From an uncultured Verrucomicrobiota bacterium (GTDB lineage: Bacteria; Verrucomicrobiota; Kiritimatiellia; RFP12; UBA3636), in assembly GCA_949285835.1 (NCBI GenBank), contig CASEAR010000121.1, forward strand, positions 1 through 32,163: 32,163 bases of DNA, read 5' to 3'. The notes under the pieces were generated by a model that saw nothing but the letters and a program-made list of their open reading frames with translations, ran no database searches and was not told the origin of the DNA. Numbering within the stretch: position 1 is the stretch's first letter; each line of letters opens with the position of its first letter. Of the stretch, positions 5,808-27,016 are shown in pieces. The position numbers and the translations under genes are program-made.

Positions 5808-6143
5808 TGCGGCAACGAAATGGGTGGCCCGGATCATTTCGAAGCAATTAGTTCCAGCATTCAATTTGCTGCTGTTCCGAGCGCAAGGCGCTGCTGCTGC
5901 GTACGAGAAAATTCCGGGTATCCGCCATGATGTTTCGTTCCATGATTCGGGCGTTGTCCGGTTTTTACGCTTTCGAAACATTATTTATTTACTCTTGTGC
6001 CTTCAATGAGGGTTGCGGTGTGCCGTCTGTTTTGAATTCTTCTGCCCATTGCGTTTTGTCTTTGAAGGTATGACCTATGCATTATGCAGACATCAAATTC
6101 TTCCGTTCTTGCCGATTTTTCCGGTGTTGTGTGGTATATCGGC

Positions 6144-6172
6144 TTGACGTTCCTCCGTATGCTGGATAGAAT
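6144..6172 (+). promoter_or_regulatory. Sigma-70-type promoter of the discoidin gene
   Basis: TTGACG at 6144-6149 and TAGAAT at 6167-6172 are separated by exactly 17 bp, and each matches the consensus at five of six positions. Transcription would begin near 6179, about 37 nt before ATG 6216. This argues against the upstream in-frame ATG at 6084, which would precede the promoter. Confidence 0.75.
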
Positions 6173-6215
6173 AAAAAGTTCATCGCGCGGGGATCCGGCG
6201 GTGCAAGGGGGACTG

Positions 6216-7982
6216 ATGAGAGACGGATTATTTGCATGTGGAGCTGTTTTTTTATCGTTGGCTGCCGGCGCTGTTATTTTAACACAAACTTCGGCACGGT
6301 GTGACGACTACTGGCAGATTGACCTTACGGAGCCCGGCGGAAATATTACATACAACGATTGTCTCAGCGGGTATATGGGCTCGAATGCCTTCGATAACGG
6401 TCCGGTGGGAAATTCTTCCAGATGGCTTTCCACGCGGATTACGGACGCTTGGGTGTGCTACGAGTTCGAGGAGCCTGCAACGGTCTGCAGTTATGCCGTT
6501 ACCGGGTTCCCATCTGATAACAACGGACTTGCTCGGGATCCCAGAGCCTGGGTTGTTGAGGCGCTGTCTGATTCCGGAGAATGGACTGTTCTCGATACGC
6601 AGACTAACCAGACAGACTGGAACGCTGTTGAGAAACGCGTATTCCAGTTCGCCAATAGAACAGCTTTCAAGACGTACCGTTTCAGGATTACGGAAAATAA
6701 CGGAGCAACCGACTATACAGGGTGCGTTGAATTGGAATTCTACTCCACTACCGTCGGACGTTTTGACTCGACCGGTGCAGATGGGAACATTTCGTTCAGC
6801 GACAGCCTGATAGATTACCCGGGAACAAAGGCTTTTGACGACGGGTTGCTGGCGTCCGAATCAAGATGGCTGGCCAGCGTTCCTTCGAATGCCTGGATCC
6901 GTTATGACTTTAACGGGCCCGTTGTTGTGTTGGGGTACTCGGTTACCGGCCTGCTGTCGGATAATATGGGTCCTGAACGAAATCCCAAGTCCTGGCTGCT
7001 TGAGGGATCGCGTGATGGGGACATATGGGAGACGCTGGACATCCGTACAGACCAGACGGATTGGAATTCTGCAGAGAAGCGCGTATTCAGAATTGAAAAT
7101 GACCGTTCTTTCTCAGCGTACCGTCTTACCATAACAGAAAACAACGGAGCGAGCGACTATACCGGTTGTCTGGAGATCGAGCTGTACACAGATCCATTGT
7201 TTTCTGGTGTTCCTTGTGTGAAGATGATCACGAGTGATTCGTCATTCCCCGAGTCGGGCAGCGTGAGTCTCGATGCGACACTGTTGAGCGGAGATTCTGC
7301 AGTTTTAACTTTCATGTGGGGAACTTCGCCGGATGAGATGAATGAGTCGGTGTCCGTTCGTTCGATCGCTCCTGAAATTTCTCATGTGGATATTACCGAC
7401 CTGCCGATGGGCAAAACATACTACTGGACAGTATTTGCGCAGAATGACTACGGAGTTGGATCCGCGGATGAAGTAAGGCCATTCCTGCCGTCCACCGGCG
7501 AGGATTTAACCAGTCCTGACGGTGGAATTATCTCGGGAACACCCGGGCACAGTGATTTCCCTCCGAAGAACGTGTTCGACGACGGAGGAAAGACTTCGAG
7601 CTCCAGATGGCTGTCAGATGCCTCTGCATTGCCTGATGTATGGGTTCAATACGAGTTTATGGGCGGAGCTCGCATAGTGATGGCATATTCCATAACGTGT
7701 CTTGGTTCAAACAATTTCGACCGCAGGTCTCCCAAGTCGTGGACGCTGTCCGGATCAAATAACGGGACAGACTGGACCGTGCTTGACACGCGTACGGAAC
7801 AGAGCTCGTGGCTTACTGAGTATGAAGTCCGGACGTATGCCGTGGATAACCGCAAAGCGTTCAGTATGTACAGACTGACGATTACTGCCAATGACGGAGC
7901 GACGGATTATGCGGGTATTTCGGAGTTGGAGCTGTTCGGCCGCGTGTCTGACTATGATATCACGGTTATAACATTCAGGTAA
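6216..7982 (+). CDS. Secreted protein with three F5/8-type C (discoidin-like) domains
   Basis: The 588-residue protein begins with a signal peptide (hydrophobic residues about 5-24, cleavage near TSA-RC). Three related beta-sandwich modules follow at about 41-176, 190-327 and 440-580. Each has the order SRWL, WV/IxYEF, DPRAWV or NPKSWL, W-VLDT, and ITENNGAxDYTGCxExEFY or a variant, which fits the F5/8 type C (discoidin, CBM32-like) fold used to bind glycans. Between modules 2 and 3 a fibronectin-III-like stretch contains GKTYYWTVFAQNDYG. No catalytic domain is visible, so it is probably a surface or secreted glycan-binding protein. ATG 6216 follows AGGGGG at 6206-6211, and the promoter just upstream supports this start. 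It stands alone, converging on the anti-sigma gene. Confidence 0.85.
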   Translation: MRDGLFACGAVFLSLAAGAVILTQTSARCDDYWQIDLTEPGGNITYNDCLSGYMGSNAFDNGPVGNSSRWLSTRITDAWVCYEFEEPATVCSYAVTGFPSDNNGLARDPRAWVVEALSDSGEWTVLDTQTNQTDWNAVEKRVFQFANRTAFKTYRFRITENNGATDYTGCVELEFYSTTVGRFDSTGADGNISFSDSLIDYPGTKAFDDGLLASESRWLASVPSNAWIRYDFNGPVVVLGYSVTGLLSDNMGPERNPKSWLLEGSRDGDIWETLDIRTDQTDWNSAEKRVFRIENDRSFSAYRLTITENNGASDYTGCLEIELYTDPLFSGVPCVKMITSDSSFPESGSVSLDATLLSGDSAVLTFMWGTSPDEMNESVSVRSIAPEISHVDITDLPMGKTYYWTVFAQNDYGVGSADEVRPFLPSTGEDLTSPDGGIISGTPGHSDFPPKNVFDDGGKTSSSRWLSDASALPDVWVQYEFMGGARIVMAYSITCLGSNNFDRRSPKSWTLSGSNNGTDWTVLDTRTEQSSWLTEYEVRTYAVDNRKAFSMYRLTITANDGATDYAGISELELFGRVSDYDITVITFR

Positions 7983-25372: not shown

Positions 25373-27016
25373 ATGAGCGAGGAAGAAAAAGGCGGCGGCG
25401 TGCCGGATAATTTCGGTTTTTCCGATGGGCTTGCGCGTAGGGAGATGGAACGGCTTTTTGAGAAGATGTCGTTCTTTGAGAGGATGAAAAGGACTGCAAA
25501 CGGGCTTGGAAAGCCGCATGATTCCGGCGAGTACAAGTTCGCAAAGCTGCAGGTGCAGCGCATGTCGGGGCCGTTTTTTGCGGTTCTGATTCCGCTTGTG
25601 TTCGTAATTTTCCTTCTGACGTTGGAACAGGATATGTCGACGGCCAAGCACAATGTGGCGGTGGAAATCATAGAGCAGACTGAAATTGAGTTGGAGGAAG
25701 AGCCTCCTCCGCCCCCGGAGCAGGTGGAGTTTGAGCCGATAGATACGGAGTTTGACGGACCAGTGAGCGATTTTGCTCCGATGGAAGTTTCAGAGGCGTC
25801 TTTGTCCAATGAGCCCCTTTCTCCGAAACCTGCGGAGATGAACGCAGTTGCGATAATCAAGAGTCCGATAATAATGCGCGGTATTCTCGGTTCCCGCAAC
25901 TCAGGCGCGCGAGGGCAGGCTCTTAAGGCGTACGGAGGATCGCAGGCCGGCGAAGCAACGGTTCTCCGTGCTTTGCGCTGGCTTAAGATGAAGCAGAATC
26001 CGGATGGGTCATGGCCCGGTCAGAAGGTGGCAATGACAGGCCTTGCAGTGCTGACATATCTTGCGCATGGTGAGACTCCGAGGTCGGAATGCGTGGAATT
26101 CGGACCAACGGTCGAGAAAGGAATCCGGTACCTTGCAGACAACGTAAAAGCAGATGGGTTCTTTACGAACAAGGATGGCAACAACTATGCTCATCTGATA
26201 GGAACATACGCGCTTTGCGAAGCGTATTCGCTGACGCGTGTCCCGAAAGTGAAGGAGGCCGCCGAACGAGCCCTCGCTCACATTATCAAGGGGCAGCATC
26301 CTGACGGCACGTGGGACTACAACATGAAGCAGACAGAAAGGCACGACACTTCCTATATGGCTTGGGCTTCACAGGCTATAAAAGCGGCGCAAATGGCCGG
26401 AGACCTGGAGGTGGAAGGTCTGGAGGAGTGCTACAAGATGGCGTCCGAGGGGTTCAAGGTAAACGCCAACTACGACTATGGCGGATTCGGGTACACGGAC
26501 CGGCGTTCCACAGGCCTTTCCGGAGCTGGTACGCTCTGCATGCAGCTTCTGGGGCAGGCGAATTCCAAGGAAGTGAAGAATGCTCTGAATTACCTTTCGG
26601 GGTGCACGTATTCGTTCGACGACTGGGAGAATCAGCCGTATAAGGGCGGCAGCCCTGTGTATTACTGGTACTACATAACGCAGGCGAAGTTCCACGCCGG
26701 CGGCAGCACGTGGACCTCGTGGAACAAGCAGTTCAGCCCGGAGCTCCAGAAGCAGCAGAAGATAATGGAGAAGGCGATAGCGGATCCGGACGGGATCATG
26801 CAGGACGTGGGCTGGTGGGAGAGTCCTTCGGAGTCTGAGCATCATGCCGGAGGCGAGGATGCCGGCAGGGTGCAGGATACCTGCCTTTGCGCGCTGCAGC
26901 TGATGGTGTACTACAGGTATCTTCCTACGTTCAAGACGCCGGAAGCGGTCGACTCTGATGTGATGGATTCCGATGACGACGAGAACGAGGTTGGCATAAC
27001 CATACGGCGCGGGTGA
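25373..27016 (+). CDS. Membrane-anchored, TonB-like N-terminus with terpenoid-cyclase-like toroid
   Basis: The 547-residue protein has a cytoplasmic N-terminus (1-65) and one membrane span at about 67-84. An acidic/proline-rich stretch (EEEPPPPPEQVEFEPI, about 107-125) reminiscent of TonB or energy-transducing proteins follows. The large C-terminal domain (about 185-520) has repeats of the prenyltransferase/squalene-cyclase alpha/alpha toroid: LKMKQNPDGSW, AERALAHIIKGQHPDGTWDY and RRSTGLSGAGTLCMQLLG. I see no DxDD cyclase motif, so terpene cyclisation is unlikely; a periplasmic binding or structural role is inferred. ATG 25373 has only a weak ribosome site (AAGGCGGG). Similar proteins occur in Lentisphaerae, Verrucomicrobia and Planctomycetes, but no exbB/exbD partner is next to it here. 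Confidence 0.85.
   Translation: MSEEEKGGGVPDNFGFSDGLARREMERLFEKMSFFERMKRTANGLGKPHDSGEYKFAKLQVQRMSGPFFAVLIPLVFVIFLLTLEQDMSTAKHNVAVEIIEQTEIELEEEPPPPPEQVEFEPIDTEFDGPVSDFAPMEVSEASLSNEPLSPKPAEMNAVAIIKSPIIMRGILGSRNSGARGQALKAYGGSQAGEATVLRALRWLKMKQNPDGSWPGQKVAMTGLAVLTYLAHGETPRSECVEFGPTVEKGIRYLADNVKADGFFTNKDGNNYAHLIGTYALCEAYSLTRVPKVKEAAERALAHIIKGQHPDGTWDYNMKQTERHDTSYMAWASQAIKAAQMAGDLEVEGLEECYKMASEGFKVNANYDYGGFGYTDRRSTGLSGAGTLCMQLLGQANSKEVKNALNYLSGCTYSFDDWENQPYKGGSPVYYWYYITQAKFHAGGSTWTSWNKQFSPELQKQQKIMEKAIADPDGIMQDVGWWESPSESEHHAGGEDAGRVQDTCLCALQLMVYYRYLPTFKTPEAVDSDVMDSDDDENEVGITIRRG

Follow-up and report, generated by a model that had tools for sequence, protein, structure and literature searches.

What is the function of a protein that carries a single membrane anchor and, behind it, a ring like that of terpenoid cyclases? 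This question is raised by an open reading frame (ORF) at positions 25373-27016 (+ strand) of the window, the whole 32,163-nucleotide stretch of contig CASEAR010000121.1 (assembly GCA_949285835.1, an uncultured Verrucomicrobiota bacterium) analyzed here. The ORF encodes 547 amino acids from an ATG start codon. An earlier note, made from the letters alone, had described a TonB-like anchored toroid without a cyclase motif and had proposed a binding or envelope-structural device. The data presented here lead further: the protein probably belongs with TonB and TolA among the motor-driven force transducers of the periplasm but has an alpha/alpha toroid in place of the C-terminal hook.

A charged N terminus is followed by a membrane span, an acidic proline-rich linker, the toroid and an acidic tail. 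The span (residues 65 to 86; positions 25565-25630) is the only hydrophobic one: the top 19-residue hydropathy window begins at residue 66, values above 1.3 are confined to windows that start within residues 56 to 79, and in the AlphaFold2 model the span falls within a helix at residues 52 to 83. P67 and P74 of the span are conserved according to column counts. The preceding segment (residues 1 to 64; positions 25373-25564), taken as cytoplasmic, contains helices at residues 16 to 31 and 34 to 45 and the beginning of the long helix in the model and the motif GL..P+.SGEYK.A..Q.QR in the alignments. The long charged N terminus ahead of an uncleaved span and the family resemblance suggest an N-in/C-out topology. 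The linker (residues 87 to 176; positions 25631-25900) has 19 D+E, 5 K+R and 12 P, with PPPPP at residues 111 to 115 and conserved S164, P165 and R175. Thus, the TonB-like anchor of the earlier note was indeed found.

At a threshold of E ≤ 1e-20, 52 of 59 genomes, its own among them, had a match to the protein, and therefore it is not a product of chance; a profile search detected the family in 188 of 387 sampled phylum genomes (E ≤ 1e-40). The window protein as the single query of genome contigs found no relative; alignment A1 then gave 79 loci (best 80 of 448 kept), i.e., the closest relatives, and 78 of these near loci hold the toroid gene while one does not. For a distant set, 57 loci were drawn from the capped list of top-scoring matches in the phylum profile search, with L230, L234 and L235 left out (wrong place or 10-base stubs), and nine further loci came from weaker-matching genomes. 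The near protein set comprises 76 sequences, the window protein and the 75 of the 78 toroid proteins that have at least 480 amino acids; alignment A2 holds 67 of the 76. The named loci are mostly from Kiritimatiellae, Lentisphaerae and Verrucomicrobia and are not independent, since several share one genome (L142, L151), others nearly duplicate each other (L152/L166 and L163/L169/L173), and L242 and L243 of the distant set repeat near loci L134 and L117. Genes were called by our own scripts with a gap limit of 600 or 700 bases, and neighbors were labeled by BLAST against exemplar proteins.

Neighbor clustering and a labeled recount revealed a recurring gene order: a tetratricopeptide repeat (TPR) protein of ~1000 amino acids, a second TPR protein of ~264 amino acids, TolQ/ExbB, two successive TolR/ExbD and the toroid gene. 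Of the 78 near loci, 40 have ExbD upstream of the toroid gene by no more than two genes, 37 have ExbB as well, 36 have two ExbD genes and 35 also have both TPR genes. In the 57 distant loci, ExbD was at most three genes upstream in 43, ExbB plus ExbD in 42 and the full operon in 31; ExbD was also upstream in four of the nine weaker-matching loci (L319-L322). The exemplar operon L098 gave Pfam matches to MotA_ExbB (4.3e-26), ExbD (4.6e-22 and 9.4e-20) and TPR, and its closest NCBIfam models, TolQ and TolR, were below cut-off, as were lolCE and LolD. A LolCE-like permease follows the toroid gene in 15 of the 78 near loci, with a LolD-like gene next in 11 of those; a LolD label in L107 and LolD/LolE labels in L114, both upstream and outside the counts used, were judged spurious. 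The earlier note had suggested looking for co-occurrence with exbB, exbD and tolQ. Since this co-occurrence was found in operons of many relatives, a motor-coupled force transducer is favored over the passive device.

In the text available from PMC12905483, TonB and TolA are described as docking on the motor via Ser-3X-His (SxxxH). This motif occurs in 57 of the 61 toroid proteins from the distant set, two of the four misses being L242 and L243, which belong to the near group; shuffling of the 57 spans gave a mean of 2.3 and a maximum of 8. Furthermore, the strand VAVEIIE (residues 95 to 101; positions 25655-25675) is a lenient match to the D-box, an alternation of hydrophobic and polar residues in the portion of PMC10907165 consulted. 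The strict pattern follows the span in 19 of the 76 near proteins (shuffle mean, 1.67; maximum, 6; 200 shuffles) and in 19 of 57 of the distant set (shuffle mean, 2.0; maximum, 6). When whole proteins of the near set were scanned, the strict pattern started 19 times at the column that corresponds to window residue 95 and 14 times at other positions. The model places 11 residues between the end of the helix (residue 83) and the start of the strand, within the 10 to 15 given for TonB/TolA in the same part of PMC12905483.

The toroid itself (residues 177 to 520; positions 25901-26932), which the earlier note had read from the repeats NPDGSW (residues 209 to 214) and HPDGTW (residues 309 to 314), is present in the AlphaFold2 model, so that the check set by that note on this point did not refute its reading. 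This model was built from a 67-sequence alignment and has a mean predicted local distance difference test score (pLDDT) of 82; the pLDDT is >90 in most toroid blocks and <50 for most of the linker (residues 96 to 108 and 120 to 174) and the tail, which are thus predicted to be disordered. A model of relative L132 has the same layout. In VIA-align, the toroid matched squalene-hopene cyclase 2sqc_A with a Z score of 24.7 (root mean square deviation, 3.0; 280 residues aligned) and cellobiose epimerases and GH76 mannanases with Z scores of 22 to 23; the leading Foldseek rows were AprG, a GH76 mannanase and 2sqc (E, 3.6e-5 to 3.8e-5). A common fold alone tells no function. Inner and outer helices were assigned from helix order, and the mean top-residue frequencies in 135 sequences were 0.74 (218-232), 0.74 (272-288), 0.69 (326-342), 0.71 (383-392), 0.69 (428-442) and 0.57 (495-513) for the inner helices and 0.70 (191-206), 0.60, 0.54, 0.48, 0.42 and 0.47 for the outer ones. 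On the whole, and with two exceptions, conservation is higher in the inner helices. Near-invariant residues include Y272, Y279, E283, S327, W331, Q334, K337, Y430, Y433, Y434, Q437 and T503. Together with the conserved inner helices, they suggest a ligand or catalytic site in the toroid.

How could such a protein work? We propose that the membrane helix docks onto the TolQ/ExbB pentamer and that the TolR/ExbD dimer captures the beta-strand just past the membrane. The disordered proline-rich linker would then pass pulling or conformational work on to the toroid, whose conserved inner side may grip an envelope partner (a peptide, a glycan or part of a lipoprotein), probably jointly with the operon's TPR proteins and in the service of outer-membrane upkeep. 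For the window copy, the motor would have to act in trans.

Several observations weigh against this mechanism. The window gene is not linked to motor genes. In its clade, which comprises 18 sequences, none of the 17 named loci has a linked ExbD; one of them, L112, starts at a contig edge, so that linkage cannot be judged there. ExbD is absent from the close upstream region in 38 of 78 near, 14 of 57 distant and 5 of 9 weaker-matching loci, and all gene-adjacency counts are raw counts. Neither TPR protein of the operon was found in the genome of the window with single L098 queries, a search that had no positive control and proves little. SxxxH is present in just 4 of 12 toroid proteins of the weaker-matching loci, and the window span, with Ala70 and Pro74, does not have it; P74 aligns to the column of the His, where 71 of the 76 near proteins, that of the window among them, have Pro and only L157 has His. 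VAVEIIE fits the D-box only if Ala is counted as a polar position, and the strict pattern is missed by 57 of the 76 near proteins. Finally, outer helix 191-206 is conserved to the level of the inner helices, and the value for inner helix 495-513 is just 0.57. A tree of 135 toroid domains (FastTree, midpoint rooted) separates the His and Pro states with three misplacements, and therefore we infer that the His was lost in the lineage of the window, which is derived.

An alternative is a passively tethered periplasmic enzyme or binding protein whose toroid acts with its inner side on a glycan, lipid or peptide, the span being just an anchor. We regard this as the strongest alternative, although a rather doubtful one. 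The conserved helices are mostly inner, the fold neighbors include epimerases, GH76 mannanases, AprG and terpene cyclases, and the window clade has neither a linked ExbD nor the His of SxxxH, with motor-free copies elsewhere. Against a mere anchor speak the TolQ/TolR-like motor operon of many relatives, SxxxH in nearly all proteins of the distant set and a D-box-like strand at a fixed column. The reading of the earlier note is thus supported in its anchor, its toroid and its missing cyclase motif, and the evidence points beyond its passive binding or structural device to motor coupling, against which the unlinked gene in the genome and clade of the window still has to be held.

If the window protein is a force transducer, which motor could drive it? 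At E ≤ 0.1, its genome has seven matches to ExbD, four of them over the cut-off, and six to ExbB, five of them over the cut-off. Contig C123 encodes a TPR protein, ExbB and two ExbD-like frames (one from a weak Pfam match, one seen by eye) and no transducer. In relative G008, the TPR-ExbB counterpart of this unit sits two genes behind a toroid gene, and ExbB of the C123 type is present in 12 of 19 family genomes, the window's own included. Therefore, the TPR-ExbB-ExbD-like unit of C123 is a candidate motor and appears to be the best one for the window copy. Elsewhere in this genome, contig C84 (L055) has the order ExbB-ExbD-TPR-VWA, and its VWA protein has an SLLFH span and resembles the force transducers with a vWA domain that were published in 2025. 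Contig C38 encodes a TonB_C protein with SLVFH, and C60 encodes a receptor, ExbB, ExbD and a TonB-resembling N-terminal fragment cut at the contig end. Contig C15 (L056:3767-6316) encodes an 849-amino-acid protein with an SFLLH span, a long coiled-coil-like region by eye and adjacent ExbB/ExbD; it had no Pfam match and is perhaps another transducer type. That the window protein substitutes for TonB was not supported: of 59 genomes, 45 have TonB_C above the cut-off and 43 have a TonB-dependent receptor plug, and the window's own genome, which is counted here, is positive in both.

The protein might also regulate or scaffold a motor, its post-span and C-terminal strands clamping two different ExbD-type subunits and its toroid holding the TPR partner, with no outward force. 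This would fit the ExbB and two ExbD genes upstream in the 36 near loci and the end of the acidic disordered tail, where the window protein has the strand EVGITI (residues 539 to 544; positions 26987-27004). In the last 14 residues, an alternating strand pattern, written after inspection of the tails, was found in 56 of 76 near and 45 of 61 distant proteins (shuffle means, 6.3 and 5.8) and in the preceding segment in only 1 and 2; moreover, 4 of the 14 off-column strict D-box matches, in 4 of the 76 near proteins, lie in the tail near window residue 540. However, the long disordered linker and TonB/TolA-like layout argue for a reach across the periplasm, and a regulator is improbable. Docking of the tail into the toroid was considered as well and had no support because the tail is of low confidence in both the window and the L132 models.

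That the protein is a terpene cyclase or a hopanoid-pathway enzyme is highly improbable in spite of the Pfam SQHop_cyclase_C match (E, 6e-9; 35.8 bits; cut-off, 26.1), from a profile search of the kind proposed in the earlier note, and the top Z score to 2sqc, since the model has one toroid only, DxDD is missing from residues 177 to 520, as the earlier note had stated, and TIGR01507 scored 37.5 bits against a cut-off of 431.1, with cyclase equivalog and subfamily models in NCBIfam far under their cut-offs. The sole literal DxDD of the window protein is DSDD (residues 532 to 535) in the disordered tail. D325 is retained in 133 of 135 sequences and S327 in all 135; position 324, preceding D325, varies (D in 49, W in 26, R in 20, S in 14 and N in 12 of 135), and in a few relatives the D325 column closes a literal DxDD. 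By the DxDD test and the NCBIfam cut-offs, the window protein is not a cyclase. A PL10 pectate lyase was rejected on score (TIGR02474; E, 0.01; 15.5 bits; cut-off, 189.8).

Further toroid copies were seen in the course of the analysis. Adjacent duplicate toroid genes occur at L090, L103, L142, L233, L237, L267 and L281. Contig C29 of the window's genome carries a paralogue (L007:10812-12410, - strand) that is 37% identical, has lost many conserved toroid residues and has a CCPVR motif in common with L105. A 1879-amino-acid relative behind a TPR gene (L060:4567-10206; G031:C4) has PD40 (TolB-like) repeats, a toroid, PD40, an SAILH span and a second toroid. The copies at L316-L318 have a span, no SxxxH and no motor neighbor. 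In the window, the gene is flanked by an aminotransferase-like and an obgE-like gene (labels read from the ORF list), and positions 6084-7982 encode a protein of 632 amino acids that looks secreted and contains three similar repeats, which by eye resemble discoidin.

It is about an even call whether these proteins form a third class of force transducer for the envelope that is driven by a motor and occurs across the phylum. In such a class, the TonB/TolA hook would have given way to an enzyme-like ring whose ligand cavity is conserved, and the ring would cooperate with two subunits of the TolR type and with TPR proteins to maintain the outer membrane; in some genomes, LolCE/LolD-like genes for lipoprotein export lie beside it. 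The lineage of the window would have swapped the motor-docking His for Pro and would carry an additional cytoplasmic helical segment. If such a class exists, it is present in about half of the sampled phylum genomes, and the motor/helix/strand module would be a general power take-off fitted with different hands. Proteins that match mainly squalene cyclases would gain a function, and the ligand held by the toroid would reveal which envelope process is served in these bacteria, which are known largely from metagenomes. In the literature covered, with most subscription papers and preprints outside the scope, nothing linked ExbB/ExbD/TolR motors to squalene or terpene cyclase toroids, and stray matches were unrelated by title. 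The main text of the 2025 survey that proposed an additional transducer class carrying a vWA domain (PMC12204202) does not contain toroid, squalene, terpen or prenyl.

How does the window protein compare with known systems? With the squalene-hopene cyclase family (2sqc, PF13243) it shares the alpha/alpha toroid fold and PDGSW-type repeats, but it has a single toroid without DxDD, a membrane anchor and a disordered linker, and its relatives have motor synteny. PL10 pectate lyases are weakly similar in one stretch. The vWA force transducers, as far as the text of PMC12204202 describes them, resemble it in the disordered linker, in a C-terminal domain unlike that of TonB/TolA and in the SxxxH span of distant toroid members, and those of the PVC group have the same kind of neighbors as the toroid operon; they differ in having vWA where the window protein has the toroid. 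Indeed, a Pfam scan found neither a VWA family nor TonB_C in the window protein, and its genome encodes a separate VWA protein with motor neighbors. Beta-strand addition is the way in which TonB and TolA bind their targets. The window protein differs from them in its C-terminal alpha/alpha toroid, in the Pro for His of its lineage and in a gene that is not motor linked, whereas the single N-terminal membrane helix and the proline-rich disordered linker are common to all three. The strand after its span approximates the D-box of TonB and TolA, and its relatives add SxxxH (the distant ones) and genes beside ExbB/TolQ and ExbD/TolR (many of them).
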